Shown here in pieces: positions 3,611 to 33,810 of a stretch of 64,000 nucleotides of DNA. The position numbers were made by a program, and so were the translations under genes. This stretch comes from Actinomycetota bacterium. Its GTDB lineage: Bacteria > Actinomycetota > Actinomycetes > Actinomycetales > Dermatophilaceae. Position 1 is the stretch's first letter; every line of letters starts with the position of its first letter. The stretch spans positions 1 to 64,000 of the forward strand of contig JAIUNK010000020.1 in NCBI GenBank assembly GCA_020161845.1, in the 5' to 3' direction. The notes beneath the pieces are model-generated. The model was not told the DNA's origin. It did not search any database and saw only the letters and a list, made by a program, of their open reading frames with translations.

Positions 3611-3629
3611 TCAATGGTCTAACCATTGA
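3611..3629. promoter_or_regulatory. FadR/LldR-type operator between lctP and the GntR regulator
   Basis: This is a perfect inverted repeat, TCAATGGT-CTA-ACCATTGA. Its core TGGTCTAACCA fits the FadR-subfamily consensus TNGTNNNACNA exactly. It lies about 97 bases upstream of lctP and 110 bases upstream of the divergent regulator gene, where one bound dimer could control both. Confidence 0.8.
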
Positions 3630-3673
3630 AGGTAGAGATTGCCGGGTCCGCGGTCAAGGGTCTCTTTCGCAAA

Positions 3674-3684
3674 ATGTCTGACCA
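3674..3684. promoter_or_regulatory. second, imperfect FadR-type operator
   Basis: ATGTCTGACCA matches the FadR-type consensus TNGTNNNACNA at all but the first position, and flanking AAT/ATT extends the symmetry. It lies 45 bases from the perfect site and 55 bases before the regulator start, so it may mediate autoregulation or loop formation. Confidence 0.5.
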
Positions 3685-3738
3685 TTCGACGACGGAGTCG
3701 GCCATCGAGGCGGCACAGTGTCCACGAGGAGGTGAGCC

Positions 3739-8145: not shown

Positions 8146-8227
8146 CGGCGGCCTTTCGCCTGGGCGACCGCAACGGTCGGGGACTGGGGGTCGGGGACTT
8201 CGCGGTCCGGGACTGGGGGGAAACGCA

Positions 8228-8270
8228 CCGACGCCGGTCCCGGCGCACGCGCGCCCGGGACCGGCGTCGG
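8228..8270 (-). terminator. strong hairpin after rpmE
   Basis: A perfect 16-bp stem (8228-8243 with 8255-8270) with an 11-base loop begins 10 bases after the rpmE stop. No T-run follows, as is common for actinobacterial terminators. It would separate or attenuate rpmE from prfA. Confidence 0.65.
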
Positions 8271-8279
8271 GACGGGAAG

Positions 8280-8495
8280 CTACTTGGCGGCCTTCTTGCC
8301 GTAGCGGGCCTCGAACCGCGCCACCCGGCCACCGGTGTCGAGGATCTTCTGCTTGCCCGTGTAGAACGGGTGGCACTGGCTGCACACATCGGCGTTGATC
8401 ACGCCGTTCTTGGCGGTGCTGCGAGTGAGGAAGCTGTTGCCGCAGGTGCACGTCACCGTGGTGACGGCATAGGCGGGGTGGATGTCCTTGCGCAC
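8280..8495 (-). CDS. rpmE: 50S ribosomal protein L31, zinc-binding type
   Basis: This is a 71-residue protein reading [16 protein letters not shown] at the start. It has the zinc ligands of the C+ form of L31 (TCTCGN and [11 protein letters not shown]). The GTG start at 8495 is preceded by CAAGGAG. A larger open frame continues upstream but is not part of the gene. A strong hairpin follows. In the conserved gene order it lies between rho and prfA; here the sensory/glycosyltransferase cassette separates it from rho. Confidence 0.95.
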
Positions 8496-8608
8496 GGTGC
8501 TCTCCTTGAGGCTCTGGTCCGCCGGGTCGTCGCACCGCGCTGATGCGTCGGGAACCGGCGAAGCGTCCTCCAGTGTGCCAGAGCGGCCCCACGGCCCCGA
8601 AATCGGGG

Positions 8609-10783
8609 TCAGGCCCGGTTCACCGCGGCGACCGAGATCGGCAACTCGACCACCACGGTGGTGCCGACGCCCTCCGTCGAGCTGAGCTGCAGGCGGCCGC
8701 CGTGCGCCTCGACGATGCCCTTGACCACGACCAGCCCCAGCCCGGTGCCGGGCACCTCCGCCCGGGTCGCGTTGCTGGCCCGGAAGAAGCGGGTGAACAG
8801 CTTCTCCTGTTCCGCGGCCGGAATGCCCATCCCCTCGTCCGAACAGACGATCCGCACCGTGCCCCCGTCGATGGCGCGCAGCGTGCGCAGCCGCACCCGC
8901 CCACCCGGCGGGGTGAACTTCACCGAGTTCGACAGCAGGTTGGTCAGCACCCGGGCCAGCTGGGCCCGGTTGCCGTTCACCGGCACGCCGGTCATCGATG
9001 CGACGTCGAGCAGCACGCCCTTGGCCTTGGCCAGCGGAGCCATCTCCTCGGCGGCATCCGTCACCAACCGATCGACGTCGACGGCCTCGGCGTTCTCGGT
9101 GCCGCCGTCCCGCATCCGGTTGATCAGCAGCAGATCCTCGATGAGTCCGCGCAGGCGTACGGCGTTGCGCTCGATCACCGCCAACATCCGGGCCTGCTCC
9201 TCCGACAGGCTGCCGGCGTCGCCGTCCTCGAGCAGCTCCAGGTAGCCGTTGATCGAGGTAAGCGGCGTGCGCAGCTCGTGCGAGACGGTCGAGAGGAAGC
9301 CGTCCTTTTGGCGGTCCAGCTCCTCCAGGCGGTGCACGTGCTCGCTGCGGGCGCGGGCCACCTCGGCGGCCGCCACGGCGCGGCCGAGCTCGGCCGCGAT
9401 GCCCTGCACGAAGCCGGCCTGCGCCGGCGTCCAGCACTGCGCGTGGTGGGTGCCGATGACCAGTACGCCGTACGGCGTGTCGCCGGTGCCGAACGCCGCG
9501 ACGATCGCGGCCTCGACGCCACCGGCGCAGTCCCGCGGCAGCGGCAACACCCCGTCGTCACCGGCACCGGCCTCCACGAGCAGGCAGCGATCGCCGCGCC
9601 ACAGCCGGCGCACGTCGTCCTGCACGGCCCGCAGCGCGGCGGCCGGCACGCGGCTCTGGGCCACCCCCTGTCGGCGTGTCCACGTCGCACACAGTCCGGT
9701 GTCGACGCCGCCGACCCTGCTCACCATGCAGGAGCCCCGGTCGGCGGCCAGCGAGATGCCGACGCCCTCGACCGCCAGGACGAACGCCGCCTCGACGTCG
9801 CCGGCGTCCTGAATGCGCCGGGCCAGCTCCCGGGTGGTCTTGGCCAGCGCCAGCGCGTAGGCCTGCTCGTCCAGGAGGGCGTGCTGGGTCGCGGTCAGGG
9901 CATTCAGGCCCCGCGCGAGTTCGCGCACCTCCCGGGCGCCCCGGTCCTCCGCCGCCCACGCCGTACGGCTGCCGTCCGCCTGCTCCCGACACGTGTTGCG
10001 CAGTCGGGCCAACGGGCCGGTCAGGCCGTGAATCGTCCACCAACCGAAGCCGGTCGCGGCAATCAGAGCGATCAGGGTGGCCACCAGCACCTGGCGTTGG
10101 GTCTCTCGGATGGTCTCCGACATCTCTCGACGCAGCGCCTCGCGCTCCACCACGATCCGGTCACTCACGGCGGCGTTCGCCGCCTCGACCTGCTCGAACA
10201 GCGCATCGCCCGAGGCCACGAACGCGGGGTCGAGGTCGAAGCGCGACTGCGCCAGCTGGGCGTATTCCCACCAGGCCGCCACGGCATCGTTTTGCCGCCG
10301 GCGCAACCCCTCGAGGTCGCGGCGCACCTGCGGATCGCTGGTGTATTCGGCCCGCGACAGGAGCGAGTCCACGCGCTGCAACTCCGACTTGTACCGGGCC
10401 TGGGCGTCGCCGTATTGGCGCCGGAATTCCGCGACGTTCAGCCCCCCGCTGGCAACCCCCGAGCGCAACGAGAGGTTCGCCACCAGATAGCCGCGCAACG
10501 CCGACTGCGCGGTGATCATCGTGTCCTCGACGTCCCGGTTGGCATCCAACGCCGGCCCGACCACCGTGGTCTGCCGGTCGGTGCGGGCCAGGCTGTCGCG
10601 CAGACCGACCGCCGCGATCAGACCGCCCAGCACCACCAGGACGGCGAACAGCGCGGTGAGCAGCGTCAACCGGGCCCGCACCGACAGCGCGGGCAGGGCC
10701 GTCCGATAGCGGCTGGGGTCGCGGCGGGCGCGATGCGACCGCGCCGTCGAGGCGCGCCGGTGCGCCCGGCGGGAGTTGGTCAT
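8609..10783 (-). CDS. membrane-bound sensor histidine kinase with GAF domain
   Basis: This is a 724-residue protein. It has a basic N terminus and TM1 at about 45-68, then an extracytoplasmic helical region of about 150 residues resembling a CHASE3-type four-helix sensor. TM2 lies at about 228-248 with a HAMP-like segment ([13 protein letters not shown]). A GAF-like domain covers about 300-480, followed by HisKA with phospho-acceptor His502 ([19 protein letters not shown]) and HATPase_c ([28 protein letters not shown]). It should autophosphorylate and signal to the receiver protein encoded at 13442-13816. The start codon overlaps the glycosyltransferase stop by 4 bases (ATGA). It is the last gene of a four-gene coupled operon. 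Confidence 0.92.
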
Positions 10784-12351
10784 GCGGCCGCCTCCCGGGT
10801 GCTTCGCGCGTCGCGCTCGGCCTGGGGCCCGGCCGCCGCGTCCGGCCCGGTCGCCGGGTCGGGTTCGGTCGCCGGGTCGGGTTCGGTCGCCGAGTGACGT
10901 TCGGCCGCGTCACGCCCGGGGGTCAGGTGGAACCCGGTTCGGGTCATCGTGCCCCAGACCGCCTTGGCACCCCGAATCCCGTCCCAGGCCCCCTGGCAGC
11001 GCCACAACGCGGTCATCTGTCGATAGCCGAAGTTCTCCAGCAGCGAGGCGACCATGCAGATCGCCAGATCCTTCCACCGCGGGTACCGGTGGAACGTCAG
11101 CTCCTCGATCGCCAACGCCGACAGGTTGATGACCGCCGCATAGCCGTAGGCGACCGCCATGAAGAGCACGGCGTACGTCGTGTCGAGCAGCCCCAGCGCG
11201 AAGGCTGCGAGCACCAGCACCAGGCCGCCGAGTTCGAGCGCCGGCGCGGCGAGTTCGAACAACCAGAACCAGGGCAGCACGACCATGCCGATCCGGCCGT
11301 ACCGGGGGTTCAGGACCATACCGCGGTATTTCCACAGCACCTCCCACAGCCCCCGGTGCCAACGCATCCGCTGCCGACGCAGCACGGCCCGAGTCACCGG
11401 CACCTCGGTCCAACAGACCGGCTCGGAGACGAAGGAGACCCGATAGTCCTCGCCGCGCTCCTTGAACAGCCGGTGGATCCGCATGACGAGTTCGAAGTCC
11501 TCGCCGAGACTGCCGTGGTCCAGGCCACCGATGTCCACCAGAACGTCGCGCCGGAACACCCCGAACGCCCCGCTGATCAGGATCAGGCCGTTGAGCCGCG
11601 ACCAGCCCGAGCGGCCCATCAGGAAGGCGCGCAGGTATTCGACGACCTGGATCCGTGCCAGCCATTGCCGTGGCGCCGAGACGCCCACGACGCGACCGTC
11701 GAGAATCGTGCACCCGTTGGCGGCGCGGATCACGCCGCCGGTGGCGACGGTCCGGACCGGGTCGACGACGAACGGCTCGGTGACGGCGATCAGGGCGTCC
11801 GGATCCAGCACGGAATCGGCGTCGACGATCGCCACGAGCTGCTGGGTCGAGGCGTTGATGCCGGTGTTCACCGCATCCGTCTTGCCCGAGTTGGCCTTGC
11901 GCACCACGGTCAGCCGGGTGCGCCCGTCGTCCGGGACGTACACCCCGAGAATGTCCGCCTGGACCGGGACATCCGCGGCGATCTCACGGTCCACCCCGAC
12001 CAGCTCGAATCGGCGCACCAGCGCCGCGAAGGTGTCGTCGGTCGAACCGTCGTCGACGACGATCACCTCGTGCCGCGGATGCCGCAGGCTGAGCAGCGAC
12101 TCCACCGAGGAGACGATCCCGGACTGCTCGTTGTAGGCCGGGACGATGAGGCTCACGCCGGGGACCATCGGCGAGGCCGCGGCCGCGTCCCGGTCCACCC
12201 AGGTCCGGCGGCGCAGATGCGAGGCGAAGTCGACGGACGCCGCGATCATCAGCACCAGGTAGGACGTGTTGATCAGCAGGAAGTAGACCAGGATCGGCCC
12301 ATCGCAGGCCGCCAGGGCGCGCTCCACCACCCACGGCAGGACCTCGATCAT
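10780..12351 (-). CDS. membrane processive glycosyltransferase, GT2 family (PgaC/HAS/cellulose-synthase-like)
   Basis: This is a 523-residue protein. One N-terminal membrane helix (about 18-40) precedes a GT-A catalytic domain with VSLIVPAYNE (near 70), VVDDGSTDD (near 98), the metal-binding VDADS (near 175), the GEDFELVMRI acceptor-site motif (near 275) and QRMRW (near 330; the QxxRW signature of processive synthases). Four or so membrane helices follow (about 350-450). Such enzymes polymerise and export beta-linked polysaccharide such as poly-GlcNAc or hyaluronan; the sugar cannot be told. The tail has a repeated ATEPDP motif. Stop and start codons overlap by 4 bases on both sides. Confidence 0.9.
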   Translation of the reverse strand: MIEVLPWVVERALAACDGPILVYFLLINTSYLVLMIAASVDFASHLRRRTWVDRDAAAASPMVPGVSLIVPAYNEQSGIVSSVESLLSLRHPRHEVIVVDDGSTDDTFAALVRRFELVGVDREIAADVPVQADILGVYVPDDGRTRLTVVRKANSGKTDAVNTGINASTQQLVAIVDADSVLDPDALIAVTEPFVVDPVRTVATGGVIRAANGCTILDGRVVGVSAPRQWLARIQVVEYLRAFLMGRSGWSRLNGLILISGAFGVFRRDVLVDIGGLDHGSLGEDFELVMRIHRLFKERGEDYRVSFVSEPVCWTEVPVTRAVLRRQRMRWHRGLWEVLWKYRGMVLNPRYGRIGMVVLPWFWLFELAAPALELGGLVLVLAAFALGLLDTTYAVLFMAVAYGYAAVINLSALAIEELTFHRYPRWKDLAICMVASLLENFGYRQMTALWRCQGAWDGIRGAKAVWGTMTRTGFHLTPGRDAAERHSATEPDPATEPDPATGPDAAAGPQAERDARSTREAAA

Positions 12352-13445
12352 GCCGGCACCCCCTCGGCCCGCAGCCGGGCCAGGTGCAGACAGGCGGCGG
12401 CGACCCGGCGGGCCGCGCCGGCGCCGGCCATCGCGGCGTCCAGCAGGTCCTGACCTCGGGCCCCCATCGCGGTCAGGGCCTGTCCGGCGGCGGTCGCCAC
12501 CGACCGGTCGTCGTCGTCCAGCAGGGGTGCCAGGCGTCCCGCCGCCTCCGGCGTACCGATCGCCCCCAGCGCGGCGATCGCGGCACGGCGCAGCCGCGCC
12601 GGCACGAGGGGGTGCAGGTACGCCGCGAGCACCGGCACGTCCGAGGCGTCGCCGAGGGCGCCGAGCAACCCCATCAGGGTCTCCTTGGTGCCGATCTCGG
12701 GCTCGAACAATATGCAGACCCGCGCCGGGGTGAGCGAGACAGGGTAGGACCCGAACCGGGCCACCTGCGCCGCCACGGCGCGCACGTGCGCATCCTTCGA
12801 ACCGAACGCCTCGGCGACCGCGTCCTGAGCCCCGGCACCGATGCCCAGCAGCGCCTCAGCGGCCACCCAGGCGGGCAGCCCGGGGTGGCCCGGCCGCAGG
12901 CCTGGCAGCTGGGCCGACGCCGCAAGCAGGGCCGGCGCGACGGCAGGGTCACCGAGCTGCCCCAAGGCGCGGGCCGCGACGAAGCGCACATCGCCCGAGC
13001 GATCGGTCAGCAGGGCGGCCAGGTGATCGCGGGAGCGTACGTCCCGGGCAAGGCCGAGCAGGTACGCCGCGCGAGCGCGCCGCCCCGCCCAGCGGGAGTT
13101 CAGCCGCGCGCGGGCTGCGTCCAGCTCGCCGTACGCCGAGAGCAGCGCACCCAGCTCGGTGGCCGGTCGACCGCGCACCTTGGCCAGCAGCCCGATCACG
13201 GCCGGCCGCATCCCACGCCACTCGCGCCGCGACAGCTCCGCCAGCTCACGCCAGGCCGCGCGGTCCTCGTCCTCGCCGGAGGCCACCTCCAGCACCAAGT
13301 GCCGTCGGCGGCCCTGCACCGAGGCCAGGGCCCGCTCGCGGCGGCGTCGCAGCGCGCGGGCCTGCACCGTCAAAGCGACCAGCAGGACTGCGACGGCCGC
13401 GAGAGCCGTCAACGACGCGACGAGCAGACCCGTCGAAGAGATCAT
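12348..13445 (-). CDS. membrane-anchored HEAT-repeat protein
   Basis: This is a 365-residue protein. ATG 13445 overlaps the response-regulator stop (ATGA). One N-terminal helix (about 6-28, LLVASLTALAAVAVLLVALTV) is followed by a basic patch and then alpha-helical HEAT/PBS-lyase-type repeats to the end. These include RSRDHLAALLTDRSGDVRFVAARALGQLGD, PEAAGRLAPLLDDDDRSVATAAGQAL and similar (segments quoted in part only to show the pattern). Such solenoids bind other proteins. Between a receiver gene and a synthase gene it may act as scaffold or adaptor for the synthase; that is inference. The longer frame to 13697 overlaps the regulator gene and is not used. Confidence 0.82.
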   Translation of the reverse strand: MISSTGLLVASLTALAAVAVLLVALTVQARALRRRRERALASVQGRRRHLVLEVASGEDEDRAAWRELAELSRREWRGMRPAVIGLLAKVRGRPATELGALLSAYGELDAARARLNSRWAGRRARAAYLLGLARDVRSRDHLAALLTDRSGDVRFVAARALGQLGDPAVAPALLAASAQLPGLRPGHPGLPAWVAAEALLGIGAGAQDAVAEAFGSKDAHVRAVAAQVARFGSYPVSLTPARVCILFEPEIGTKETLMGLLGALGDASDVPVLAAYLHPLVPARLRRAAIAALGAIGTPEAAGRLAPLLDDDDRSVATAAGQALTAMGARGQDLLDAAMAGAGAARRVAAACLHLARLRAEGVPA

Positions 13446-25082: not shown

Positions 25083-25154
25083 GCCCCCGTAGCTCAGGGG
25101 ATAGAGCACCGCCCTCCGGAGGCGGGAGCGCAGGTTCGAATCCTGCCGGGGGCG
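25083..25154 (+). tRNA. tRNA-Arg (anticodon CCG)
   Basis: A complete cloverleaf: acceptor GCCCCCG/CGGGGGC, D arm GCTC...GAGC, anticodon stem CCGCC/GGCGG with loop CTCCGGA, and T arm GCAGG-TTCGAAT-CCTGC. The anticodon CCG reads CGG codons. CCA is not encoded directly after the discriminator base. The 3' part is the left attachment site of the integrated element, which restores the gene exactly. Confidence 0.97.
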
Positions 25155-25156
25155 CC
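25131..25156 (+). repeat. attL core of the integrated element (26-bp direct repeat)
   Basis: CAGGTTCGAATCCTGCC followed by GGGGGCGCC is identical at 25131-25156 and 33785-33810; the next bases differ on both sides. It covers the T arm and 3' acceptor strand of the tRNA gene, the usual target of tyrosine integrases. Confidence 0.95.
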
Positions 25157-25162
25157 CACGAA

Positions 25163-25203
25163 AAAGGCCACCTGACCAGCGGAAACGCGATCAGGTGGCC
25201 TTT
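25163..25203 (+). terminator. terminator supplied by the element to tRNA-Arg
   Basis: A perfect 13-bp stem (AAAGGCCACCTGA with TCAGGTGGCCTTT) and 15-base loop starts 8 bases after the tRNA, ending in TTT. It lies just inside the element. Confidence 0.85.
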
Positions 25204-25250
25204 CGCGTGCACTCCACGTGCACCAGCCACCCTCGACCGAGGGGGTCAAA

Positions 25251-25559
25251 ATGAACACCACCACCACACCGTCCGTCGCCGACGAGGTCGTCGACCGCCT
25301 CGCCGCGATGATCGAATCCTGCGGCCTGGACGTCGACGAGGTCGCCGCCCGAGCCGGCCTGACCACCACCGTGCTGAGTCGGATCCTGGCCAGCCCGAGC
25401 CGGCTGACCGTCAACCAACTCGGGGCACTGGCCGACGCGCTCGGCCTATCGGTCGCGGCGTTGATCGGAGCCAGCCCGGACCCTTACGGCGAGCCGGCCA
25501 CCCGTTGCGGGGTCATCGGCTGCCCGGATCCGTCCCACCAGTTGTCCGGGGCGTGGTGA
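25251..25559 (+). CDS. small Xre-like helix-turn-helix protein of the element
   Basis: This is a 102-residue protein; ATG 25251 has GAGGGGGT seven bases upstream. Residues 10-75 form a Cro/CI-type HTH (LDVDEVAARAGLTTTVLSRILASPSRLTVNQLGALADALGLS, shown in part only as LDVDEVAARAGL). The C-terminal CGVIGCPDPSH has two Cys and a His that could bind metal. It reads opposite to the main operon from the attL end, the place of a repressor or control gene. That role is inferred. Confidence 0.72.
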   Translation: MNTTTTPSVADEVVDRLAAMIESCGLDVDEVAARAGLTTTVLSRILASPSRLTVNQLGALADALGLSVAALIGASPDPYGEPATRCGVIGCPDPSHQLSGAW

Positions 25560-25615
25560 CCATGAGACCCCACCAGCCAGAAACAGAATCCACCCAACCG
25601 AGGAAGGCATCCACC

Positions 25616-25813
25616 ATGCACACCATCGACACAGCCAAGTACATCGTCGCCAGCGCCCTTGGGTCTGCTGGCGACCGCCTCCGCAATGCCGGCGCCCGCG
25701 TTCACCACTCGGTCCCCGTCGCAGTCCGGACCGAGGACGTCACTCGGGCCGCAGTAGCGGCCTGGCATATCGGCGTGCGAGACGGGCGCCGCGTGACCAC
25801 TGGCCGGGCCTAG
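25616..25813 (+). CDS. small hypothetical protein of the element
   Basis: This is a 65-residue protein with GAGGAAGG eight bases before ATG 25616. The sequence (MHTIDTAKYIVASALG at the start, VTRAAVAAWHIGVRDGRR near the end) is helical with an amphipathic first part. I do not recognise it. It follows the HTH gene by 56 bases on the same strand and may be co-transcribed. Confidence 0.55.
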   Translation: MHTIDTAKYIVASALGSAGDRLRNAGARVHHSVPVAVRTEDVTRAAVAAWHIGVRDGRRVTTGRA

Positions 25814-25869
25814 GGGGCGCGCCAGGGGGGGGCGTTCTTGATTCGGTTGGGGTGGTTTGGACCTGGGCG

Positions 25870-26146
25870 TTATGCGATCAGTTCGAGGAAGCGGTGCAGC
25901 TCGGCGTCGGCGGCCAGCACCATCCGCCGCAACGTCGAGATCGCCGGCCCGCCCGGACCTGGCCCGATCCGCGACAAGACCGATCGGGGCAGGTCGGCGA
26001 TCCACTGGGCGGCCGCAGCGTAGGAGGTCACCCCCGCACAGGCCGCCGCGATCGATGCCGTCAATACAGCCGCGAAACCGATAACGGCCGGCCCTGCGCA
26101 CGACGGGGATCAGGGGGGCGTGCACACTCGGAAGCCGATCCATTTC
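25870..26146 (-). pseudogene. ISAs1-type transposase N-terminal remnant
   Basis: The leftward frame to 25870 reads AAAAQWIADLPRSVLSRIG then ISTLRRMVLAADAELHRFL. This resembles the N-terminal DDE_Tnp_1-associated domain of ISAs1-family transposases. The preceding piece (VVRRAGRYRF) is in another frame, so the gene is frameshifted, and the catalytic domain is absent. No terminal repeats were found. The rest of 25814-26363 shows no gene. Confidence 0.5.
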
Positions 26147-26363
26147 TGAGCAGTCGAGAGCCACTCGTGACCAGTTTTGCGCGTCATTCTGGCCCCCTTC
26201 GGATTTGCTGTGTAGAGAAAGTGGCTAATCCCCGTGGTCCTTGGTTGTTGCATGGTGGGGGACTCCCCCCTGGTCGTGGGGGTGGTGGTTGTCGCTTTCG
26301 TTGCATTGTTAGTCGATGGTTGCTGAGCGTTTGATTACTGCGGCGAACGCGCGAGAGAACAAG

Positions 26364-26414
26364 CAAAGCCAGAGCGAGGCACGAGCCCTAACGTCGTGCC
26401 TCGCTCTGGCTTTG
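26364..26414 (-). terminator. 21-bp perfect hairpin ending the capsid operon
   Basis: Arms 26364-26384 and 26394-26414 are exactly complementary (CAAAGCCAGAGCGAGGCACGA with its reverse complement) around a 9-base loop, starting 12 bases after the capsid stop. On the minus strand CTTGTTCTCTC follows. It is very likely the late-operon terminator. Confidence 0.85.
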
Positions 26415-26426
26415 GGACTTTGCGAA

Positions 26427-27275
26427 CTAGTCGGCGGCAACCGTCAGCTTGACAATACGGCTCGGTCGGACGGCCGCCCAGCCGATGCGCCACGTTGCTC
26501 GGATCGCGATAGCGTCATTGGCGAAGAATGCATGGTCAGACCGGTCGAGATGCAGCTGGCCGTACGCCGAAACGACTTCGGACTTGTCGATGACGATAGC
26601 CTTGCCCACTGTGACTGAGGGATGCACGGTGACGGGAAGGCCGCCAAGGATCCGCTCTGCGCCGTTGTGGGCGTCCGCGAGCAGGGACACGTTGGAACCG
26701 GTCCCCATGGGAATGCGTGCGAGCTTCGCCCAGTCGAGCGGATTCATGAGCAGGTTGGTTGCCTGGCCGCCATCGTTCTCGATAGCGGCGATGGCGTCAT
26801 ACAGGGCGTAGATATCGGGGCCCACGGATCCGCCGATATCCCCGCCGGCAACGATGCCGGCCGTGGTGAGCAGGCCGGCGGGACCGGATGCATTCGAGAG
26901 GAACGCCTGATCGGCCTTCCGAACGATGGAACGTCGCATCGAGTTGACGATCCGGGTCGCAGCCTGCGGCTGTTCGAGCACTTCGCGGGCGAACGTGGAG
27001 AGCACGGACACCTTGTGCGTGTCGATTGCGACCTGGTCATAGGCGCCGGCCGTGACCGGAATCGGTGCACCCTCGGCGATGAAGTCTGCCGCCGCGTCGG
27101 TTTTGACGTAGGGCACGAGGACGCGCGGCGCGTCGCCTTCAATCTCCCCCGCTCGGGAAGTGCAGGTGATGATCAGTGCTTCGGGGATCTGGTCGTCGGG
27201 GTCGAATGTCGAGACGACATTCGGGCGCCATCCCTCGGGAATCTGAGGCGTGGTGGCAGGGCTAGTAATGGGCAT
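26427..27275 (-). CDS. phage major capsid protein, HK97 fold
   Basis: This is a 282-residue protein. The order of segments is that of short HK97-type capsid proteins: an N arm, VPYVKTDAAADFIAEGAPIP (E-loop and spine region), STFAREVLEQ, an IVRKADQAFLSNAS helix, NLLMNPLDWAKLARI, and a C-terminal ILGGLPVTVHPSV...IVIDKSEVVSAYGQL P-domain run. It lacks the roughly 100-residue scaffolding domain seen in HK97 gp5, in keeping with separate scaffold-like genes just upstream. It is the last gene of the element operon, followed by a strong terminator. Confidence 0.85.
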   Translation of the reverse strand: MPITSPATTPQIPEGWRPNVVSTFDPDDQIPEALIITCTSRAGEIEGDAPRVLVPYVKTDAAADFIAEGAPIPVTAGAYDQVAIDTHKVSVLSTFAREVLEQPQAATRIVNSMRRSIVRKADQAFLSNASGPAGLLTTAGIVAGGDIGGSVGPDIYALYDAIAAIENDGGQATNLLMNPLDWAKLARIPMGTGSNVSLLADAHNGAERILGGLPVTVHPSVTVGKAIVIDKSEVVSAYGQLHLDRSDHAFFANDAIAIRATWRIGWAAVRPSRIVKLTVAAD

Positions 27276-27356
27276 TTGTTCTGGGGCCTTTCTCGGGGCT
27301 AAGTGTGTTTTCTGTCTGAGCGGAGGATCTACCTTCTACGCTCTTCGGCCCCCGGG

Positions 27357-27412
27357 CCTGTCCTCGGGTGCTGAGGCGACGCCTGGCCGCTTCTTCACCA
27401 CCCGAGGACAGG
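27357..27412. repeat. 14-bp inverted repeat between the capsid gene and its upstream neighbour
   Basis: CCTGTCCTCGGGTG (27357-27370) pairs exactly with CACCCGAGGACAGG (27399-27412), loop 28 bases. It lies in the 164-base gap before the capsid gene, so a partial terminator, a processing site or a capsid-gene control hairpin is possible. Confidence 0.8.
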
Positions 27413-27439
27413 ATAGCGCAATATGGACGCGTTCCGCCA

Positions 27440-27748
27440 CTACTTCCGGGCTAGCCCGTATTCTCCGACCACGCGGTCGACGATTGCGGAAACCTTCTCA
27501 GGGTCAACGGCGCATTCGCTATCGAGGACGTCGCTCAATCTGACGCCGAGTTTCCACATTGCTGCTGGATTCTTCAGGTCGGCATGGCCCTCCGCGACCC
27601 CGGTGAGGGACTCGCTGAGGAGGCTGAGGAGGACCTTTTCCTCATCGTAGAGCGCTAGGAGATGCCGCAGGCATCTCTTAGCATGTTCACGCTTTGCGAT
27701 CAAGATAGCGCCCTGATCAGCGGCAGTCATTCGCACCGTTGCTTCCAT
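27440..27748 (-). CDS. scaffold-like element protein, short paralogue
   Basis: This is a 102-residue protein with GAAGGGA nine bases before ATG. It is helical with a charged N half (IAKREHAKRCLRHLLALYDEEKVLL). Its C half (AAMWKLGVRLSDVLDSECAVDPEKVSAIVDRVVGEYGL, residues 63-100, pattern only) aligns with the C half of the next protein upstream: Trp-x-LG, SDvLD, VDPekv and eYGL are shared. I know of no named family. Its position before the capsid gene suggests a head-assembly or capsid-size role. Confidence 0.7.
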   Translation of the reverse strand: MEATVRMTAADQGAILIAKREHAKRCLRHLLALYDEEKVLLSLLSESLTGVAEGHADLKNPAAMWKLGVRLSDVLDSECAVDPEKVSAIVDRVVGEYGLARK

Positions 27749-27784
27749 GACCGGATTCCCTTCTTTTGTTTGAGATTTTCGTTT

Positions 27785-28342
27785 TCAGCCGCGGCCCATC
27801 ACAATATCTTCGGGTCGAGCCGCGGCTGATCCACCGTCGCCGGGATGCATGCCCTCCAGCGGGGCGTAGCAGCCGCGCGGGGGCTGCAGGCCGTACTGCT
27901 CGGCGTACCGCTGGCCCAACGCGGCAGCCTTGGCCGGGTCGACGTTGCCGTCGTCGTCCAGGGCGTCCGTGACGGAGGCGCCCAGCGCCCAAAGCGCGCT
28001 GGGCGTACGCAGGCGGGTGTGCCGCTCGACCTCGCGTTGCTGGGCCACTGTGAGCCGTTCTGCGAGGCTGTCGCGCTCGACCTCTACCTCCCGCAGCCGG
28101 CGCCGGTACTTGGCCGCCTCGCGGCCTGCTGGCTCCGTCTCTGGGGCTACTTCCAGCTCGGCCCCTGGCGCTACCTCGGGCTCGGTCTCTGGCACCACCT
28201 CGGGCTCGGTCTCTGGCACCACCTCGGGCTCGGTCTCTGGCGCTGCGTCTGCCGCCTCCCGGTCGGCCGTCGCCGTGTCGGCCGCCTCCGCGGCAGCTTC
28301 GGCCGCCGCTTCCTTTTCACTGTTTCGCTCCTGCATTTTCAC
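27785..28342 (-). CDS. scaffold-like protein with acidic repeats and coiled coil
   Basis: This is a 185-residue protein. The N part is Ala/Glu-rich, then ETEPEVVP-type octapeptides repeat five times (about 35-72), then comes a strong coiled coil (KYRRRLREVEVERDSLAERL, about 77-110). A domain (ALWALGASVTDALDDDGNVD...YAEQYGL, about 118-155) is shared with the 102-residue neighbour. The acidic plus coiled-coil build is typical of phage scaffolding proteins. AAGGGAG precedes the GTG start. It lies two genes upstream of the capsid gene. The role is inferred. Confidence 0.72.
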   Translation of the reverse strand: MKMQERNSEKEAAAEAAAEAADTATADREAADAAPETEPEVVPETEPEVVPETEPEVAPGAELEVAPETEPAGREAAKYRRRLREVEVERDSLAERLTVAQQREVERHTRLRTPSALWALGASVTDALDDDGNVDPAKAAALGQRYAEQYGLQPPRGCYAPLEGMHPGDGGSAAARPEDIVMGRG

Positions 28343-28365
28343 GTGCTCCCTTTTCGTCGGGTTAT

Positions 28366-28662
28366 CTAATTTGCATTGCGTTTCTTGCGTGCTATCGGAG
28401 TTTGGTCAACACCTCCCCACACATGCCAGCCCTCATTGGCGAGGGCCGCGTATTCTGCGCACTCGATCAGCGCCGGGCATTCGGCGCAAGCCGCGACCGC
28501 GCGAGCCCTGCGCAGTACAGAGGTCGACGTCCAATCCTCAGAATCCTTCCCGCGGCATGGAACAGCGCCGAAGGCGCCGGCAATTGCTGCCGCGAGCCGA
28601 AGAGACGAACTGGCCGCCGCGCGCGACAACTGCGACTCTGAGTAGAGGGGCTGGGCGCTCAT
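28366..28662 (-). CDS. WhiB-family iron-sulfur protein of the element
   Basis: This is a 98-residue protein from ATG 28662, which overlaps the primase stop (ATGA). Four cysteines (PCRGKD near 35; CAECPALIEC near 60-68) and the GWHVWGGV turn are the Wbl signature, so it should hold a [4Fe-4S] cluster. A short basic tail (RKKRNAN) replaces the longer AT-hook-like end of chromosomal WhiBs. Phage-borne WhiB proteins are known to block host WhiB2 function. Here it is translationally coupled to the replication gene. Confidence 0.85.
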   Translation of the reverse strand: MSAQPLYSESQLSRAAASSSLRLAAAIAGAFGAVPCRGKDSEDWTSTSVLRRARAVAACAECPALIECAEYAALANEGWHVWGGVDQTPIARKKRNAN

Positions 28663-31004
28663 ACGCTCACCACCCCCCGCCCACCAGAGGGGCATGATGG
28701 GTGGGTCGCATGGCCCTCGGAAACGCTTAGGTCGTCGAGTGCCAGACCGCAGGAGCCGCACAGTGGTGCCGGTCGTGCCTTACGTCCGGGCGTTGGCGCG
28801 ACTGGCACGACTGGCACGACTGTGGATGAGCTGGGCAGTTGTGCCCCAATACATACAGTTGTGCCATCTCCCCTAGACGTAGGCTCGACTGAGGCATGAC
28901 TGGGAGGTTCCGGACTGCTCTCCGCGGGAAGTTCCCAGTAGGTGACCCTTGGGTAGCCCGTCGACCTCGACGTCAGCCGCAGCCTTTCGCGGGCGCGTTG
29001 TATGGTTCTTTCGCTGTGTCCGGCCTTGCGCCCCTCGTTCTTGACGTCAATTGACCTGGCAATGCCGCCGTTCGTCTCCAGGTAGTCTCGCACCCAGCCC
29101 GCCGCTTCGGATACGGCCGATCGCTCGTCGTCAGTTGCGTTTGCACGCTTCATGCAATCGCTAATGGACTGGCCCGAAATACTCTCCCCCCATTCGATCC
29201 TGCCCGTGTAAATCGGACCATCGGAGGTGTCTACTCGGTGGGAAGCGACCGTGTATGCGAGCGTTGGCAGATTGGCACGGCCCAGGTTGTTCTTTGGCGT
29301 CCCGAAGAGGCATCGGTTTTCGTCGTCAGGGTCAACAATGCATGTGTGCACCGAGCGAGCCACCGCCGTAAAGGCGCGGGATCCAGTGACCAAGTGCAAT
29401 GGGTCAGAGCTGCCCGACTTGTTGTGGTGGATCAGGCCGAGGATTGCGAAGCCGCACCGATCCGCGATGCGAACGATTGGCTCAAGGCCCTTTCGTACCT
29501 CCGCGTCTCGGTGCGTGTCGAGTTCCCCGAGGCGTGATGTGAGCGGGTCGAAGAGGAGGAGGGCGGCGCCGACGTCTAACGCGTGCTTTTCAAGCTCCGA
29601 ATTGTCTCGTGGCAACATTAGTCCTACGGGATCGTCGTTACTGTTGGTAACGTCGATGCGAAACACCTTGTCAAGGTCCGCGTTTGCCGCGATCAGCCTG
29701 GGGACAATCGTGTGTTCCCAACTGTCTTCCATCGCTGACACCAAGACTGCCCCCGGCTGTCCGAGTCGGTCGCCGGGCAACTCCCCGCGTGTCACGCGCG
29801 CTGCCAGCCAGTAGGCCAGCGTCGACTTCCCGATACCTTCACGGCCAGACAGGAGCCCCATCGTGGCAAGCGCTAGCCGGCCTTCCCATAGCCAACGGAC
29901 CGGACGTGGCGTGAACGCGGATGCCGGGGTAAGGGTTACCGTTCGGCCGGCGCCGCGTGCCACGTCCGACTTCGCCGCGCCGCCGCCCCCCATGGTCGGC
30001 TCGGCGGCCTCCAGCTCGGCCAGCGACTCTGCGAGAGAATCTGGCATCGGCGCGGGGCCACGTCGATGCCACTGGTCCCGCCACTTGTTGACTGCTGTGC
30101 ACGCGCGGATCTGCTCAGGTAGCACCGAGTCGTACGCCGCGGCGCCGTCCTGCTCGGTCCAGGGCGTCCAGCTCGCGCGTGTGAGTCGGCCGAGCCTGTT
30201 GGCCAGGTCCGCGCAGCACTTTTCCCACCCGCGCCCCTGCTGGTCGCGGTGCCCCTCGGACCATATGGCAATCTCGGCGAACCGGGCGCTCTCGTCCGCG
30301 ACGACCTGAGCAAGGTACGCCTCGATACGGCCCCTCTGGGCCTCGCTGAGCGCCGACCACGCGGGCGCGAGCCCCTCGGAAGGGATCGACGCCTGCGGCG
30401 CCCTCTTGGCGTCCACGCGAGCTTTCAGTGTGCCCGTCGAGTCGTCTGGCCCGTCGAGCGCAACCAGGTCCGGCTCATTGACCCATTCGTAGGCGGCCAG
30501 GTTTCCTGTCGACTTCGACAGCTTGACCGTGGGCGCGATCCAGATGAAGCCGTGCCCCCGCCCAGCGGCCCCGGCCTTCAGGTCCAGCCCTTGGTCTACG
30601 CCGTCCATGGATCGACACCCAGTGGCCGCGATCAGGTCATGCCACCCACCCGAAGGCGTGAGCTGCCGGCCGTACGACGTCGGCCACACCCCAGCACCCC
30701 CCCATTGGTGGGCTGTGGCGTCCCCTCCATTTCTGGGGTCGACGTCGAGGCAGTCGACCGGGCCCGGGGCGCCCATCACGGCAGCGAGGGCGTCGCCCGG
30801 CCGCCACGTGTCGACGACGGCCGGGTCTGGGGTGGTGGCCTGCCAGCCGGCGGGCAGCACGTAGCCGGATTGGCCACTGCCGCCTTTCGGGTCCCACTGG
30901 CCGTCCGCTCCGAGCGCGGGGTGGGCGATGAAGATCGGGATTCCGCGGGCGGCGAGCCGGCGGGCCGTTGTGAGCGCTGAGGCTGTCTTTTCAGGTGAGG
31001 TCAT
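28659..31004 (-). CDS. primase-polymerase / RepA-like helicase of the element
   Basis: This is a 781-residue protein. A bifunctional primase/polymerase-type domain is at about 12-180, with GPVDCLDVDPRNGG as the acidic active site and SGGWHDLI, HGFIWIAP further on. A RepA/AAA_25-type ATPase is at about 365-600, with P-loop LLSGREGIGKSTLAYW, Walker B ALLLFDPLTS and LIHHNKS. A winged-helix-like piece (GHSERTIQRARERL) is near 690. Such proteins start replication of small prophage elements and satellites. The start overlaps the upstream gene (ATGA) and the stop overlaps the WhiB gene. Confidence 0.88.
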   Translation of the reverse strand: MTSPEKTASALTTARRLAARGIPIFIAHPALGADGQWDPKGGSGQSGYVLPAGWQATTPDPAVVDTWRPGDALAAVMGAPGPVDCLDVDPRNGGDATAHQWGGAGVWPTSYGRQLTPSGGWHDLIAATGCRSMDGVDQGLDLKAGAAGRGHGFIWIAPTVKLSKSTGNLAAYEWVNEPDLVALDGPDDSTGTLKARVDAKRAPQASIPSEGLAPAWSALSEAQRGRIEAYLAQVVADESARFAEIAIWSEGHRDQQGRGWEKCCADLANRLGRLTRASWTPWTEQDGAAAYDSVLPEQIRACTAVNKWRDQWHRRGPAPMPDSLAESLAELEAAEPTMGGGGAAKSDVARGAGRTVTLTPASAFTPRPVRWLWEGRLALATMGLLSGREGIGKSTLAYWLAARVTRGELPGDRLGQPGAVLVSAMEDSWEHTIVPRLIAANADLDKVFRIDVTNSNDDPVGLMLPRDNSELEKHALDVGAALLLFDPLTSRLGELDTHRDAEVRKGLEPIVRIADRCGFAILGLIHHNKSGSSDPLHLVTGSRAFTAVARSVHTCIVDPDDENRCLFGTPKNNLGRANLPTLAYTVASHRVDTSDGPIYTGRIEWGESISGQSISDCMKRANATDDERSAVSEAAGWVRDYLETNGGIARSIDVKNEGRKAGHSERTIQRARERLRLTSRSTGYPRVTYWELPAESSPEPPSHASVEPTSRGDGTTVCIGAQLPSSSTVVPVVPVAPTPGRKARPAPLCGSCGLALDDLSVSEGHATHPSCPSGGRGVVSV

Positions 31005-31366
31005 GACGACTCACCAGAAATCGCCATAGCCGCATCGAACGCCGCACTGACGGTCGTGTAGTCGCGCCAGTCGTGCCCTGAAAACTGCTCGGCCCGAATG
31101 ATGGCAACGGCATGTGGCGCGCCCCGCTTAGCTGCTGCAACGACTGCTCGCTCCGCGGCGGCCAGAGTGAGGAAGATCCTTCTATGCCACTGCCCATTTC
31201 CTCGTCTTACGGAAACCTGCAGGGCCAGTGAGGGGCGCGTCGTATGGGTTGTTGCGGCGCCCGTAGGGACGCGGCTAGCCTGTGAATCGGAGTTCCCACT
31301 TCGTCGCGTTTCGTCCGGGGTCGGGCCGCCTTCTCCTGAGGCGGCCCGATTTCGCGTTTTGGTCAT
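31001..31366 (-). CDS. hypothetical element protein
   Basis: This is a 121-residue protein. The first 45 residues are polar and disordered, then SLALQVSVRRGNGQWHRRIFLTLAAAERAVVAAAKRG forms a beta-beta-alpha unit (given only as a pattern around QVSVRRGNGQWHRRIFLTL). I do not recognise a family. It begins 3 bases after the HTH gene and overlaps the primase start by 4 bases, so it is certainly part of the operon. Confidence 0.75.
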   Translation of the reverse strand: MTKTRNRAASGEGGPTPDETRRSGNSDSQASRVPTGAATTHTTRPSLALQVSVRRGNGQWHRRIFLTLAAAERAVVAAAKRGAPHAVAIIRAEQFSGHDWRDYTTVSAAFDAAMAISGESS

Positions 31367-31369
31367 CGC

Positions 31370-31570
31370 TCACTGGCCCCCTAGGATCGGGGTGAGCATG
31401 CGGTCAATCTCGCGAGCGTCGTACCTGAGTAGTCTCGGACCCATGCGCATTGCCCGGAGGTCGCCCCTAGACGCCATCCGACGAACCGTGATTACAGAGA
31501 CGCCTAGGTATTCGGCTACCTGTTCTTGTGAAAGCCAGCGGCGTTCGGTTTTGACATGTGCGCCGCTCAT
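31370..31570 (-). CDS. excisionase-like helix-turn-helix protein
   Basis: This is a 66-residue protein reading WLSQEQVAEYLGVSVITVRRM and DARE(I)DRML, the HTH_17/AlpA-excisionase pattern of a winged helix with a C-terminal strand. ATG 31570 overlaps the stop of the preceding small gene (ATGA), which decides this start over ATG 31579. In elements of this kind the protein directs excision with the integrase or acts as an activator. Confidence 0.82.
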   Translation of the reverse strand: MSGAHVKTERRWLSQEQVAEYLGVSVITVRRMASRGDLRAMRMGPRLLRYDAREIDRMLTPILGGQ

Positions 31571-31773
31571 AGTGCACACGCTTCCGTCAGTCGGCCAGCG
31601 GTCCTTGCGTCGTCTCGCAGCGTCGCGCCCCGGCAGGACGGCCGCGCACCGACGTGCGTCCCACCCTGGGAGGTTTTCGCTTGACTAACCTCGGTGCGCG
31701 ATTGCTCGACTCTGCGATTAAGGCCCAGAGCGAGGCGTCGGCGCACTGACGCCCGATGGCTGAAATTGGGCAT
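31567..31773 (-). CDS. small basic protein of the element
   Basis: This is a 68-residue Arg-rich protein with AAAGGTGATC eight bases before ATG and a 4-base overlap with the HTH gene. I do not recognise the sequence. The ribosome site and coupling are the main support; it may act mainly as a leader gene. A small hairpin (CCTTTC/GAAAGG) covers the ribosome site. Confidence 0.5.
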   Translation of the reverse strand: MPNFSHRASVRRRLALGLNRRVEQSRTEVSQAKTSQGGTHVGARPSCRGATLRDDARTAGRLTEACAL

Positions 31774-31901
31774 GGTAGATCACCTTTCGTGATGAAAGGC
31801 GACCCGCCCTGCAGTCGCGTTCACCGGACGCGTCCGGCACGTTGGCCCGAAGTGGGCACCGCTGAGGCTTGTTCTTGAGTTGGCTTACTGATGTCGTGCT
31901 T

Positions 31902-32180
31902 CTATGCGACCCTGACTTTCCACTCTGGTCGTAATCCGTCATTAAGGACTGGCCTCGATAGCGCTATCTTGATATCAGCGCGGAGGGATTCAATTTCCGG
32001 CACTGTGCCACACTCGCACGGGTCCCGATGCGCCCTCTTGTCATCCCAGTACGCCGTTAGAATCGCGGCGTCGACATTGCTGGTGTCCGACACACATAGC
32101 CTTCCACGGATATGCCCGCAGAGTTTGCAACGAGCCACGATTACCGGCTCTGGTGCAGTGAATTGTTCCCACATAATCAT
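31902..32180 (-). CDS. small zinc-ribbon-like protein of the element
   Basis: This is a 92-residue protein with two Cys pairs (RCKLCGH near 17-20 and PCECGT near 54-57), as in a zinc ribbon. AAGGA lies 11 bases before ATG. It is the first gene after the likely leftward promoter. The 128 bases between it and the next gene hold no other supported gene. The function is unknown; a DNA- or RNA-binding role is possible. Confidence 0.65.
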   Translation of the reverse strand: MIMWEQFTAPEPVIVARCKLCGHIRGRLCVSDTSNVDAAILTAYWDDKRAHRDPCECGTVPEIESLRADIKIALSRPVLNDGLRPEWKVRVA

Positions 32181-32255
32181 CGCTTTCGAAGTTCCTTAGG
32201 TTCCGCTTGTGTCCGTTCCGCGCATGCGCCCGGGCCGAGCGATCGCGCCTCCTCC

Positions 32256-32285
32256 ATAGTCACCTTAGACTAACGTAAATGTCAA
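32256..32285 (-). promoter_or_regulatory. probable promoter of the leftward element operon
   Basis: On the minus strand there is a perfect -35 TTGACA (32280-32285), an 18-base spacer and GACTAT (32256-32261). The spacer contains TTAGTCTAA, a small palindrome that could be an operator. The expected start is near 32249, 69 bases before the first gene. Confidence 0.5.
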
Positions 32286-32395
32286 CCCCCCGCCCCCGGG
32301 CCCGCCGGCCCCGGCTCGGCGAGTCCGAAGTTCAGGGGCTCATGCCTCCAAGGTCCAGTTCGGAGAGGCGCGCTTAGAAATCGTGGCCGTCGGAT

Positions 32396-32495
32396 GGTGC
32401 GTTCTTAATGTCGACTAGTTTTCGCGGGTTCTTAATGTCAACTAGTCTTCGTGCGTTATTAATGTCGACTAGTTTTCGTGCGTTCTTAATGTCGA
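32396..32495. repeat. 27-bp tandem repeat of the integrase gene's last codons and stop
   Basis: Read on the minus strand, the unit is TCG ACA TTA AGA ACG CAC plus GAA AAC TAG: eight codons and a stop. The copy at 32469-32495 ends the integrase gene; copies at 32442-32468 and 32415-32441 and a partial one to 32396 follow it with 2 to 4 changes each. Confidence 0.92.
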
Positions 32496-33620
32496 GGTTC
32501 CGTTCGCAAGTTTCGACATGGCCGCAGCGATCGCGGCGTCCCGTCCTTGCGCAGCGTGCTGGTAGCGGAGGGCTGCCGCTGGGGTACTGTGCCCCACCCG
32601 AGCCATCAGCTCGGCGAGCGTGGCGCCCGTCTGCGCCGCCCAGGTCGCCCCCGTATGGCGCAGATCGTGCAACCTCAGATCGGGCCGCCCTGCCGCCTCC
32701 CGGGCCCGGGCGTAGGCCTTGGTGGTCTCCGTATGGCTCAAGTGCCGGTTCCCCTCGCGGGCGAACAGCAGTGCGTTGCCGGCGCGGCCGACGTACTCCA
32801 CCAGGTGTCGTTCGACGTCGGGAATCAGGTGCGGCGGGATCGCGACCGTCCGGCGACCCGCAGCGCTCTTCGGCGGCCCCACCAGATCCTCACCGTTGAC
32901 CCGCACGACGGCCCTGTCGACGCGGACGGTGCCCTTCTCGACGTCAATGTCCCGGCGCCGCAGCTCGGCCAGCTCGCCGTACCGCATCCCGCACCAGGCA
33001 GCGAGCAGCACGAACAGCCGCAGCCGGCCCGGGACGATGGCCTCAGCGATCGCCTGGACCTCCGCCGGCGTGGCCGTGCTGATGTCGCGGACGCGGCGGG
33101 TTGTCCCAGCGCCTCGGATCTTGGCCGGGTTCTCCCGGAGCAGTCCCTCATCGACGGCCTGGCCGAGCAGGGTCCGCAGGAGGCTGTAAGCGTGGGCTCG
33201 TTGGGTCGGCTTGCCGGCCGGCAGGTTGTCGTGCCAGCGCCGTACGACCTCGCCCGTGATCCCCCGCAGGGGCAGCTCTCCGAGCCCGGGCAGGACGAGG
33301 CGGTCGAGCTGGGAGCGGTACAGCGCCAGCGTCCGGGGGCGCAAGGGCTGTCCCCTAACGCGGCGACGCTCCAGGGCGCCGGGGGCGTATTGCACAAGCG
33401 TCGCGCCGTGGGTAGCGACCCGCCGCGCGGCTGGCGGGCGCCATTCGTCTCGCTCGATCAGGCGGCGCTCTGCGGCCAACCACGCCTCGCCGTCGATCTT
33501 GACTGTGAAGGTCTCGGGCGCTAAATGGCGCAGCCCGTCCGGGCCGGAGTAGTACGCCTGCCAGCGGCCGGACGGCAGTTTGCGGAGCCCGCCGAAGCCT
33601 CTCCTGCGCCGTGCTGGCAT
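32469..33620 (-). CDS. int: tyrosine-family integrase
   Basis: This is a 383-residue protein. The AP2-like arm-binding N terminus (LPSGRWQAYYSGPDGLRH, about 11-28) is followed by a SAM-like core-binding domain (about 75-165) and the catalytic domain with Arg in WCGMRYGELAELRRRD (near 210), HDLRHTGATWAA (near 318) and the nucleophile Tyr in ALRYQHA (near 355). It should recombine the 26-bp tRNA-Arg core. It lies 164 bases from attR, as expected. The last eight codons are tandemly repeated beyond the stop. Confidence 0.93.
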   Translation of the reverse strand: MPARRRRGFGGLRKLPSGRWQAYYSGPDGLRHLAPETFTVKIDGEAWLAAERRLIERDEWRPPAARRVATHGATLVQYAPGALERRRVRGQPLRPRTLALYRSQLDRLVLPGLGELPLRGITGEVVRRWHDNLPAGKPTQRAHAYSLLRTLLGQAVDEGLLRENPAKIRGAGTTRRVRDISTATPAEVQAIAEAIVPGRLRLFVLLAAWCGMRYGELAELRRRDIDVEKGTVRVDRAVVRVNGEDLVGPPKSAAGRRTVAIPPHLIPDVERHLVEYVGRAGNALLFAREGNRHLSHTETTKAYARAREAAGRPDLRLHDLRHTGATWAAQTGATLAELMARVGHSTPAAALRYQHAAQGRDAAIAAAMSKLANGTSTLRTHEN

Positions 33621-33784
33621 GATCCTGTCGCCATCCTGTCGGGAATCGCGTGCACTCTACGTGCGCTAAGCGAGTCTATACGAGAGTGTCTAAGTTGAGT
33701 TATGATAGCCGGGCGAAGTGACAACATCGCTGTTCAGACCCTTAATTGTGCTGGCTGCCGTCGCGGGGCCGAATCTGGAAAGCA

Positions 33785-33810
33785 CAGGTTCGAATCCTGC
33801 CGGGGGCGCC
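33785..33810 (+). repeat. attR core of the integrated element
   Basis: This is the second copy of the 26-bp tRNA 3'-end sequence. The upstream half of the tRNA is absent here, so this end marks the right boundary of the element. Confidence 0.95.

Follow-up and report, generated by a model that had tools for sequence, protein, structure and literature searches.

Phage satellites known so far either remodel the shell of their helper phage or, in the case of the capsid-forming phage-inducible chromosomal islands (PICIs), bring a shell together with a portal and a packaging motor. Capsid-carrying candidate PICIs, made up of an integrase and a capsid gene and including phiRv1 and phiRv2, are already known in Mycobacterium, and their mobilisation by a helper was, as that survey itself states, not demonstrated (PMC10654092). 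Similar mycobacterial elements of 9-12 kb have also been described, some with a portal and a terminase and some, such as phiBN42_1, with a protease and a capsid among their assigned genes (PMC3986857). Here, a stretch of 64,000 nucleotides from a genome of the Dermatophilaceae (positions 1 to 64,000 of contig JAIUNK010000020.1, assembly GCA_020161845.1; hereafter the window) was analysed. It carries, inserted at a tRNA-Arg gene, an element of about 8.65 kb with genes for integration and excision, replication and regulation plus shell genes, and without recognisable genes for a portal, a large terminase subunit (TerL), a neck or a tail. We consider it likely that this is an integrated phage satellite of the capsid-carrying kind, which would provide its own scaffold and capsid and use the portal, motor and tail of a helper.

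The only tRNA gene found by ARAGORN in the window was a tRNA-Arg(CCG) on the plus strand at 25083..25156. A repeat search showed that its 3' end (25131..25156, the core of the left attachment site, attL) recurs as an exact 26-bp copy at 33785..33810 (the attR core). Both copies are 8,654 bp apart, which is the size of the element, and with one mismatch the repeat extends to 30 bp, starting at 25127 and 33781. As this was the sole word of at least 14 bp common to the flanks (0.76 kb at the integrase end and 4.5 kb at the capsid end), corresponds to a tRNA 3' end and has an integrase gene adjoining its distal copy, the repeat is far beyond what chance would produce. In two of three genomes of the same genus (G001 and G003), the site was empty, with an intact tRNA-Arg gene identical in 71 of 71 bases and followed within about 0.3 kb by the right-flank sequence of the window; the third (G002) also had the right-flank sequence, with no tRNA gene in the ~38 kb upstream. 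The GC content was 65.4% in the element and 71.3% in the flanks. The exact repeat and the empty sites thus bear out a preliminary description of this DNA, which had placed an element of about 8.65 kb between 26-bp att repeats at tRNA-Arg.

The gene at 26427..27275 (minus strand) encodes a major capsid protein of 282 aa with the HK97 fold, matched by PF05065 (3.3e-24), phrog_10 (3.8e-25) and TIGR01554 (8.7e-18). The domain was full-length, with scores well over the cut-offs (86.2 against 24.2 bits for PF05065, 64.6 against 27.5 for TIGR01554), and a profile of eight related capsid proteins matched solved capsids, including 6b0x (major head protein) and 1if0 (capsid protein gp5). As the alignment to TIGR01554 was limited to positions 150-385 of this 385-position model, the protein has no delta domain. 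Two scaffold-like genes precede it on the same strand, the first encoding 185 aa from a GTG start (27785..28342) and the second 102 aa (27440..27748). Since a delta-less capsid protein accompanied by a separate scaffold-like gene need not depend on a protease, the absence of one would be no anomaly. An AlphaFold model of the capsid protein, built from few sequences, was too poor for a fold search (mean pLDDT 49.3) and was set aside.

When the proteins of the element were scanned for known families (10 at first, against Pfam and PHROG, then a repressor-like and a 65-aa open reading frame, ORF), no portal, TerL, protease, neck, connector, HNH or tail family was found among them. Besides the integrase (383 aa), the primase (781 aa) and the capsid protein, no proposed gene exceeds 185 aa, whereas the portal and TerL of the 51.5-kb phage Herbertwm, by coordinates, have ~493 aa (1,482 nt) and ~587 aa (1,764 nt), so neither could hide among the remaining genes. 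A hidden terminase or portal in the window was rejected from family scans and gene sizes, and the preliminary description was right that no terminase, portal, head protease or tail gene is recognisable. The packaging and tail modules that characterise a complete prophage are not present in the element.

Relatives were sought with two profiles. With the scaffold profile, matches were obtained in 24 of 396 genomes of the order, and with the capsid profile in 36 of 394 taken from the class. Outside the order, the capsid profile matched most strongly in one family of two genera (f22), which may be Mycobacteriaceae; the hosts of the relatives are presumed from kinship labels. From the 36 genomes with a capsid-profile match, seven of this family plus the window were read. 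The examined set comprised 32 elements (that of the window, L020-L024, L055-L070, L072, L076 and L106-L113). A full prophage with TerL, portal and tape measure (L071), two loci without the element plan (L025, L026) and two without a capsid match (L073, L074) were set aside.

Boundary repeats were searched in 28 of these elements (20 + 8), leaving out those cut by contig ends (L056, L060, L061 and L070). An exact repeat of at least 18 bp was found in 21 of them, the window included, with copies 7,511-10,912 bp apart, and ARAGORN located a tRNA gene at one copy in 16 of the 21 (Arg, Thr, Lys, Gly, Ser, Phe, Tyr, Ala, Val, Leu and Pro). Six of the seven elements without such a repeat (L063, L065, L066, L072, L111 and L113) were serine-integrase-like by best match or Pfam, and long att repeats are not expected of serine integrases; the seventh (L057) had a repeat of 15 bp. 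Judged from these sequences, the element is not a one-off but belongs to a class that occurs in several actinobacterial families and at various tRNA genes, with the same short plan and its own att sites, and no related genome was found in which the block is the remnant of a full prophage. The core of the preliminary description, a capsid-encoding satellite borrowing portal and terminase, survives in that neither a portal or TerL nor remnant-like relatives were found; its suggestion of an intact element is put in doubt by transposase debris near the capsid gene.

The case for the 185-aa protein as a scaffold is comparative. A homologue adjoins the capsid gene in 10 of the 14 relatives found through the capsid alone (L020-L024, L076 and L106-L113). 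Another 20 regions (L055-L074) were fetched for a match to the scaffold profile, 17 of them with a related capsid gene adjoining, one being the full prophage and two having no capsid match; as they were chosen in this way, their scaffold genes are no independent evidence, and 10 of 14 is the independent figure. The head scaffolding family phrog_4708 was matched by four of 10 homologues scanned (2.3e-5 to 5.6e-4). The 102-aa protein is 31-34% identical to part of the 185-aa protein and appears to be a shorter copy of it; L109 also has two tandem scaffold-like genes before its capsid gene (10522-11025 and 11285-11749).

The nearest phage capsid, 31.6% identical to that of the window, belongs to WillG, a complete genome of 10,866 bp from soil that was deposited as a phage of Mycolicibacterium aichiense. 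Twelve M. aichiense records of 10.9-11.1 kb match WillG, and the two of these that were opened (WillG and JSGardenL2) both come from soil. The annotation of WillG comprises a serine integrase, a helix-turn-helix (HTH) protein (replication-type by PHROG), a capsid, a terminase (small subunit, TerS, by PHROG), an adaptor, a stopper and a tape measure. No portal or TerL was found in it, seven of its 17 proteins having been scanned and the rest being integrase, capsid and small proteins by annotation. WillG-type genomes share with the window element an integrase, a replication gene, a scaffold followed by a related capsid and the lack of a portal and TerL, but differ in their serine integrase and in the additional TerS, adaptor, stopper and tape measure. 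The WillG scaffold matched phrog_4708 (1.6e-4), and the JSGardenL2 homologue of the 185-aa protein is annotated as a scaffolding protein.

When WillG was compared with Herbertwm, which infects the same host species, the adaptor was 49%, the stopper 45% and the start of the tape measure 63% identical, and the capsids were 23% identical over a part. The tape measure has 651 aa in WillG (L019, 8075-10030) against 807 aa in Herbertwm (L095, 15323-17746), so the WillG satellite may specify a shorter tail. As the WillG-type records were deposited as phage genomes, two of them from soil, they suggest that packaging does occur for a satellite that has its own shell but neither portal nor motor. A literature search returned no paper on WillG-type genomes.

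The capsid lineage was followed through phage records and a tree. The window capsid matched 11 Mycolicibacterium and 20 Arthrobacter phage records, none above 32% (26-27% for Arthrobacter), and nothing on plasmids. The best matches of the L022 capsid were WillG-type records (34%), the L072 capsid had none among 50,697 records, and no larger phage with a close capsid was found in that set. In a tree of 34 rows, the window capsid grouped with other element capsids and one viral contig in a six-row clade (96/94) that did not contain the phage capsids, of which only three were sampled; the deeper forks were weak. The label 'satellite' needs five changes on this tree, so that a single origin of the satellite capsids is not established by it. 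The ratio of non-synonymous to synonymous substitutions (dN/dS, Nei-Gojobori) was 0.19-0.65 for the capsid gene in eight pairs of relatives and 0.50-0.74 for the scaffold gene in three, the window gene standing outside these pairs as it has no close relative. The capsid genes of the relatives are under purifying selection. Two variants of the capsid gene were seen. In L108, a short ORF ahead of it duplicates the N-terminal portion of a capsid protein (9484-10335 and 10363-10698), and L085, a viral contig of 13.5 kb, has two capsid genes (2967-3812 and 12055-12900) about 9.1 kb apart, whose proteins are 84% identical, which could represent either two satellites in tandem or an assembled concatemer.

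The genomes of the relatives were searched for portal and TerL genes with phrog_2, phrog_12 and phrog_104. The search covered 28 genomes, 27 carrying elements plus G279 with its full prophage; G025 was added to the set, four genomes with weak scaffold matches (G064, G201, G283 and G361) were left out, and the Bifidobacterium callitrichos element (L076) and the viral contigs lay outside it. In 21 of the genomes, phrog_9 and PF10145 were searched as well. Matches to phrog_12 were found in four of the 28 (G141, G398, G559 and G586) and to phrog_104 also in four (G077, G279, G559 and G627). None of these portals was inside an element in the 27 element-carrying genomes, where each lay on a different contig or at a distance of about 0.5 Mb or more, and the only portal at an examined locus was that of the full prophage of G279. 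The strong phrog_2 matches in the f22 genomes were not at the elements, and most other phrog_2 matches were weak. A TerL gene was found just upstream of the scaffold gene in G398 (L067) and G196 (L070). That of L067 (8288-9724) is interrupted by a stop in an otherwise complete-looking element, which may be a picture of terminase loss. In G627, whose element is on another contig, a second capsid match on contig C106 (~15.8-20.7 kb) lies beside portal and TerL matches with internal stops.

The ORFs of the elements were also scanned by families. For 22 elements (L060 and L061 excluded), 163 of 176 listed ORFs (78 + 85) were scanned, and the 25 commonest of 36 and of 56 families included primases, TerS and TerL (two matches each) and a minor-tail family (also two), with no portal family among them. 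From L106-L113, 12 long ORFs were scanned by families. When 20 long ORFs were scanned singly, 19 of them from the examined loci, most of those with a match were replication or regulatory proteins. In L069, a local portal match (1.9e-5) stood beside better nudix matches. TerS-like genes, recognised by similarity to that of WillG, were present in L024, L055 and L064. An HNH endonuclease-like ORF 35% identical to that of Herbertwm was seen close to the capsid gene in L112 (8571-8936).

The genes of the window element are ordered as follows. From attR inward, the minus strand carries the integrase, a 27-bp repeat, a 92-aa ORF, the excisionase-like gene, a 121-aa ORF, the primase/helicase and a WhiB-like gene, followed by the scaffold-like gene, its shorter copy and the capsid gene; on the plus strand, near attL, are the repressor-like HTH gene and the 65-aa ORF. 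The tyrosine integrase (32469..33620) matched PF00589 (3.5e-19) and phrog_1 (3.4e-57). At the 3' end of its gene, the repeat search identified 3.7 tandem copies of 27 bp (32397..32495), putative origin iterons or arm sites for integrase and excisionase; in the 14 relatives scanned, no comparable number of copies was listed next to the integrase. The 92-aa ORF (31902..32180) has paired cysteines and is possibly a zinc protein, with no Pfam family below E 1 and a best PHROG match of 0.027. The 69-aa excisionase-like HTH protein (31370..31579) matched HTH_17 (1.1e-10), phrog_66 (excisionase, 5.6e-9) and TIGR01764 (over the cut-off); among its ~30 HTH-type matches was a weak one to phrog_57 (TerS, E 0.0014). 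The 121-aa ORF (31001..31366) has a weak homologue in the same place in L020 (35% over 66 aa).

The primase/helicase (28659..31004) matched AAA_25 (6.9e-25) and phrog_10729 (2.5e-44), and its N-terminal part may, judging by its motifs, be a Prim-Pol domain. The integrase, an AlpA/Xis-type regulator and a primase or replication gene, which are features of a prototypical PICI, are thus all present. The WhiB-like regulator (28366..28761, PF02467 1e-7, over the cut-off) overlaps the primase gene in its longest ORF and probably starts internally. A WhiB-like gene also lies directly upstream of the scaffold gene in L061 (2541-2966) and in the same region in L065 (8558-8914), and its placement in the three elements suggests a late-gene switch. 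On the plus strand, the repressor-like HTH protein of 113 aa (25218..25559) matched HTH_3 (8.3e-7) and phrog_4583 (2.2e-7), and the 65-aa ORF 3' of it (25616..25813) had no PADLOC or NCBIfam family. A PADLOC/NCBIfam scan for defence cargo found no family beyond HTH-level matches of the repressor-like protein. A perfect 21-bp inverted repeat (26364..26414) that closely follows the capsid gene is terminator-like, although a terminator scan does not list it. Beyond it lies insertion-sequence debris (25833..26115), pieces of which recur near contig ends elsewhere in the genome; it contains a 64-aa transposase fragment on the minus strand (25870-26064; PF13808 7.6e-4, below the cut-off) and belongs to a multicopy insertion sequence that breaks the assembly. 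The WhiB-like gene, the second scaffold copy, the tandem repeat and the transposase debris are additions to the preliminary description.

With this set of genes, infection by a helper phage would relieve the HTH repressor, Int and Xis would then excise the element, and the primase/helicase would replicate it, with the 27-bp repeats as a possible origin. Late genes would be switched on with the help of the WhiB-like protein, and the scaffold and the capsid protein would build a small procapsid nucleated on the portal of the helper, whose terminase would package the satellite and whose neck and tail would complete the particle. We infer particle formation and the borrowing from a helper from the gene content. 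In a published genome-length model, genomes of 8.1, 8.9 and 11.8 kb correspond to shells of triangulation number (T) about 2.33, 2.49 and 3 (PMC7762592). On this scale, a single packaged copy of 7.5-10.9 kb would call for a shell of T about 2.3-3, below T=4, while a T=4 shell (18.0 kb) could equally hold two copies. Tentatively, and with less confidence than for the satellite nature of the window element, we propose an actinobacterial class of 7.5-11 kb in which only the shell (a scaffold and a satellite-specific capsid lineage) is the element's own, and the portal, motor and tail are borrowed. Its shells would be the small tailed-phage capsids (T about 2.3-3) described as missing (PMC7762592), and the second scaffold-like protein would take part in size control.

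Several observations weigh against these proposals. The 185-aa protein of the window itself matched no scaffold family in Pfam, PHROG and NCBIfam scans. Some of the relatives own more than a shell: TerS, neck and tape-measure genes occur in WillG, two ORFs of relatives gave the minor-tail matches, and in the 10-kb element L110 the capsid gene is followed by a tape-measure/endolysin-like gene of 978 aa (6274-9210), in the same place as the tape measure of WillG. Profiles can miss portals, as phrog_12 missed those of G077 and G279, the latter being found by phrog_104 (7.8e-100). Five elements hold ORFs of at least 400 aa without a named family, in which a diverged portal may be present. In four of them (L057, L058, L111 and L113), these ORFs, of 401-537 aa, matched nothing, and in the fifth, the 9-kb element L106, a 515-aa protein (7391-8938) matched the unnamed phage family phrog_14159 (6.1e-55). 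In the genome of the window, searches with phrog_12, phrog_9, phrog_104 and PF10145 recognised no helper prophage, so an external helper would be needed; phrog_2 gave one weak match there (5.9e-5, a 543-aa ORF on contig C82) and also matched 11 of 14 control genomes. Finally, the interval from the capsid gene to attL holds the transposase debris, and at this place L055 has a TerS-like gene, directly after its capsid gene. A gene may therefore have been lost at this point, and the element, supposed intact in the preliminary description, may no longer be so.

The alternative that survives best is that the capsid protein acts as a size redirector like Ccm, co-assembling with that of the helper, for example as pentamers, and forcing a smaller shell, while the scaffold-like proteins tune its size. 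Such a role is established for Ccm of SaPIbov5 in small procapsids built by the helper (PMC8569155), and it would explain the missing portal, terminase and tail equally well. We nevertheless consider it unlikely, as a co-assembling subunit would be expected to track the protein of its helper, whereas this capsid lineage is far from phage capsids (26-27% for Arthrobacter, and no record at all for L072), and as the capsid gene is accompanied by a scaffold-like gene in most of the relatives found without regard to the scaffold.

It is much less probable that the element is the deletion remnant of an ordinary prophage in which integrase, primase and capsid were kept by chance. The transposase debris and the interrupted TerL gene of L067 are what such decay could leave, but the gene order and size are repeated across several families and at different tRNA genes, the capsid genes of the relatives are under purifying selection, the capsids group with those from other elements and apart from the three sampled phage capsids, and no larger phage with a close capsid was found among the 50,697 records. 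Equally improbable is that the capsid operon only interferes, poisoning helper assembly to protect the host without packaging the element: no packaging gene save the weak TerS-type match of the excisionase-like protein and no helper prophage were recognised, but the mobility genes and the empty site in sister genomes point to transfer, 12 WillG-type genomes (two opened) were deposited as phages, and the HTH-level matches of the repressor-like protein are the sole defence-family matches.

If the proposal of satellites that own only their shell is correct, a foreign capsid protein must fit the portal and terminase of another phage, and these elements would test the specificity of capsid-portal recognition. 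They would also be natural candidates for the very small tailed-phage capsids that are predicted and have not been seen (PMC7762592), and many short actinobacterial 'defective prophages' could be re-read as possibly working satellites. A literature search, in the texts accessible to it, found no account of a recurring, att-bounded class of shell-only elements outside Mycobacterium, nor of its own capsid lineages.

The window element differs from a prototypical PICI in that the latter has no full capsid gene and remodels the capsid of the helper, whereas here a full capsid gene is present. The candidate PICIs share with the element a tyrosine integrase at a tRNA gene, a capsid gene and sometimes a helicase and a scaffold, but they are described in Mycobacterium only, some carry a terminase, and section 9 of the survey sets out no class without portal and terminase (PMC10654092). 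By their descriptions, phiRv1, phiRv2 and similar elements agree in size, integrase, excisionase, primase and capsid (PMC3986857). A prohead protease is listed for phiBN42_1, and scaffold, portal, terminase and HNH for phiBN44_1 (PMC3986857), whereas the window element has no protease family and has a scaffold-like gene instead.

The capsid-forming PICIs make their own capsid and borrow a tail, as the window element would, but they also encode a portal, a protease, connectors, both terminase subunits and HNH, none of which was recognised here (PMC10690885). Ccm of SaPIbov5 is a satellite HK97-type capsid protein in particles otherwise built by the helper, as the capsid protein of the window would be; in contrast to the latter, which is delta-less and has scaffold-like genes beside it, Ccm carries a delta domain and is unable to make capsids by itself (PMC8569155). 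The Mulch and Flayer satellites of Streptomyces are also actinobacterial and have their own small capsid, of 42.5-43.7 nm, but they encode a terminase and a portal and lack a primase, and MiniFlayer has 17.4 kb (PMC10690885). The element thus departs in defining features from the classical and the capsid-forming PICIs, and fits the loose published category of candidate PICIs.

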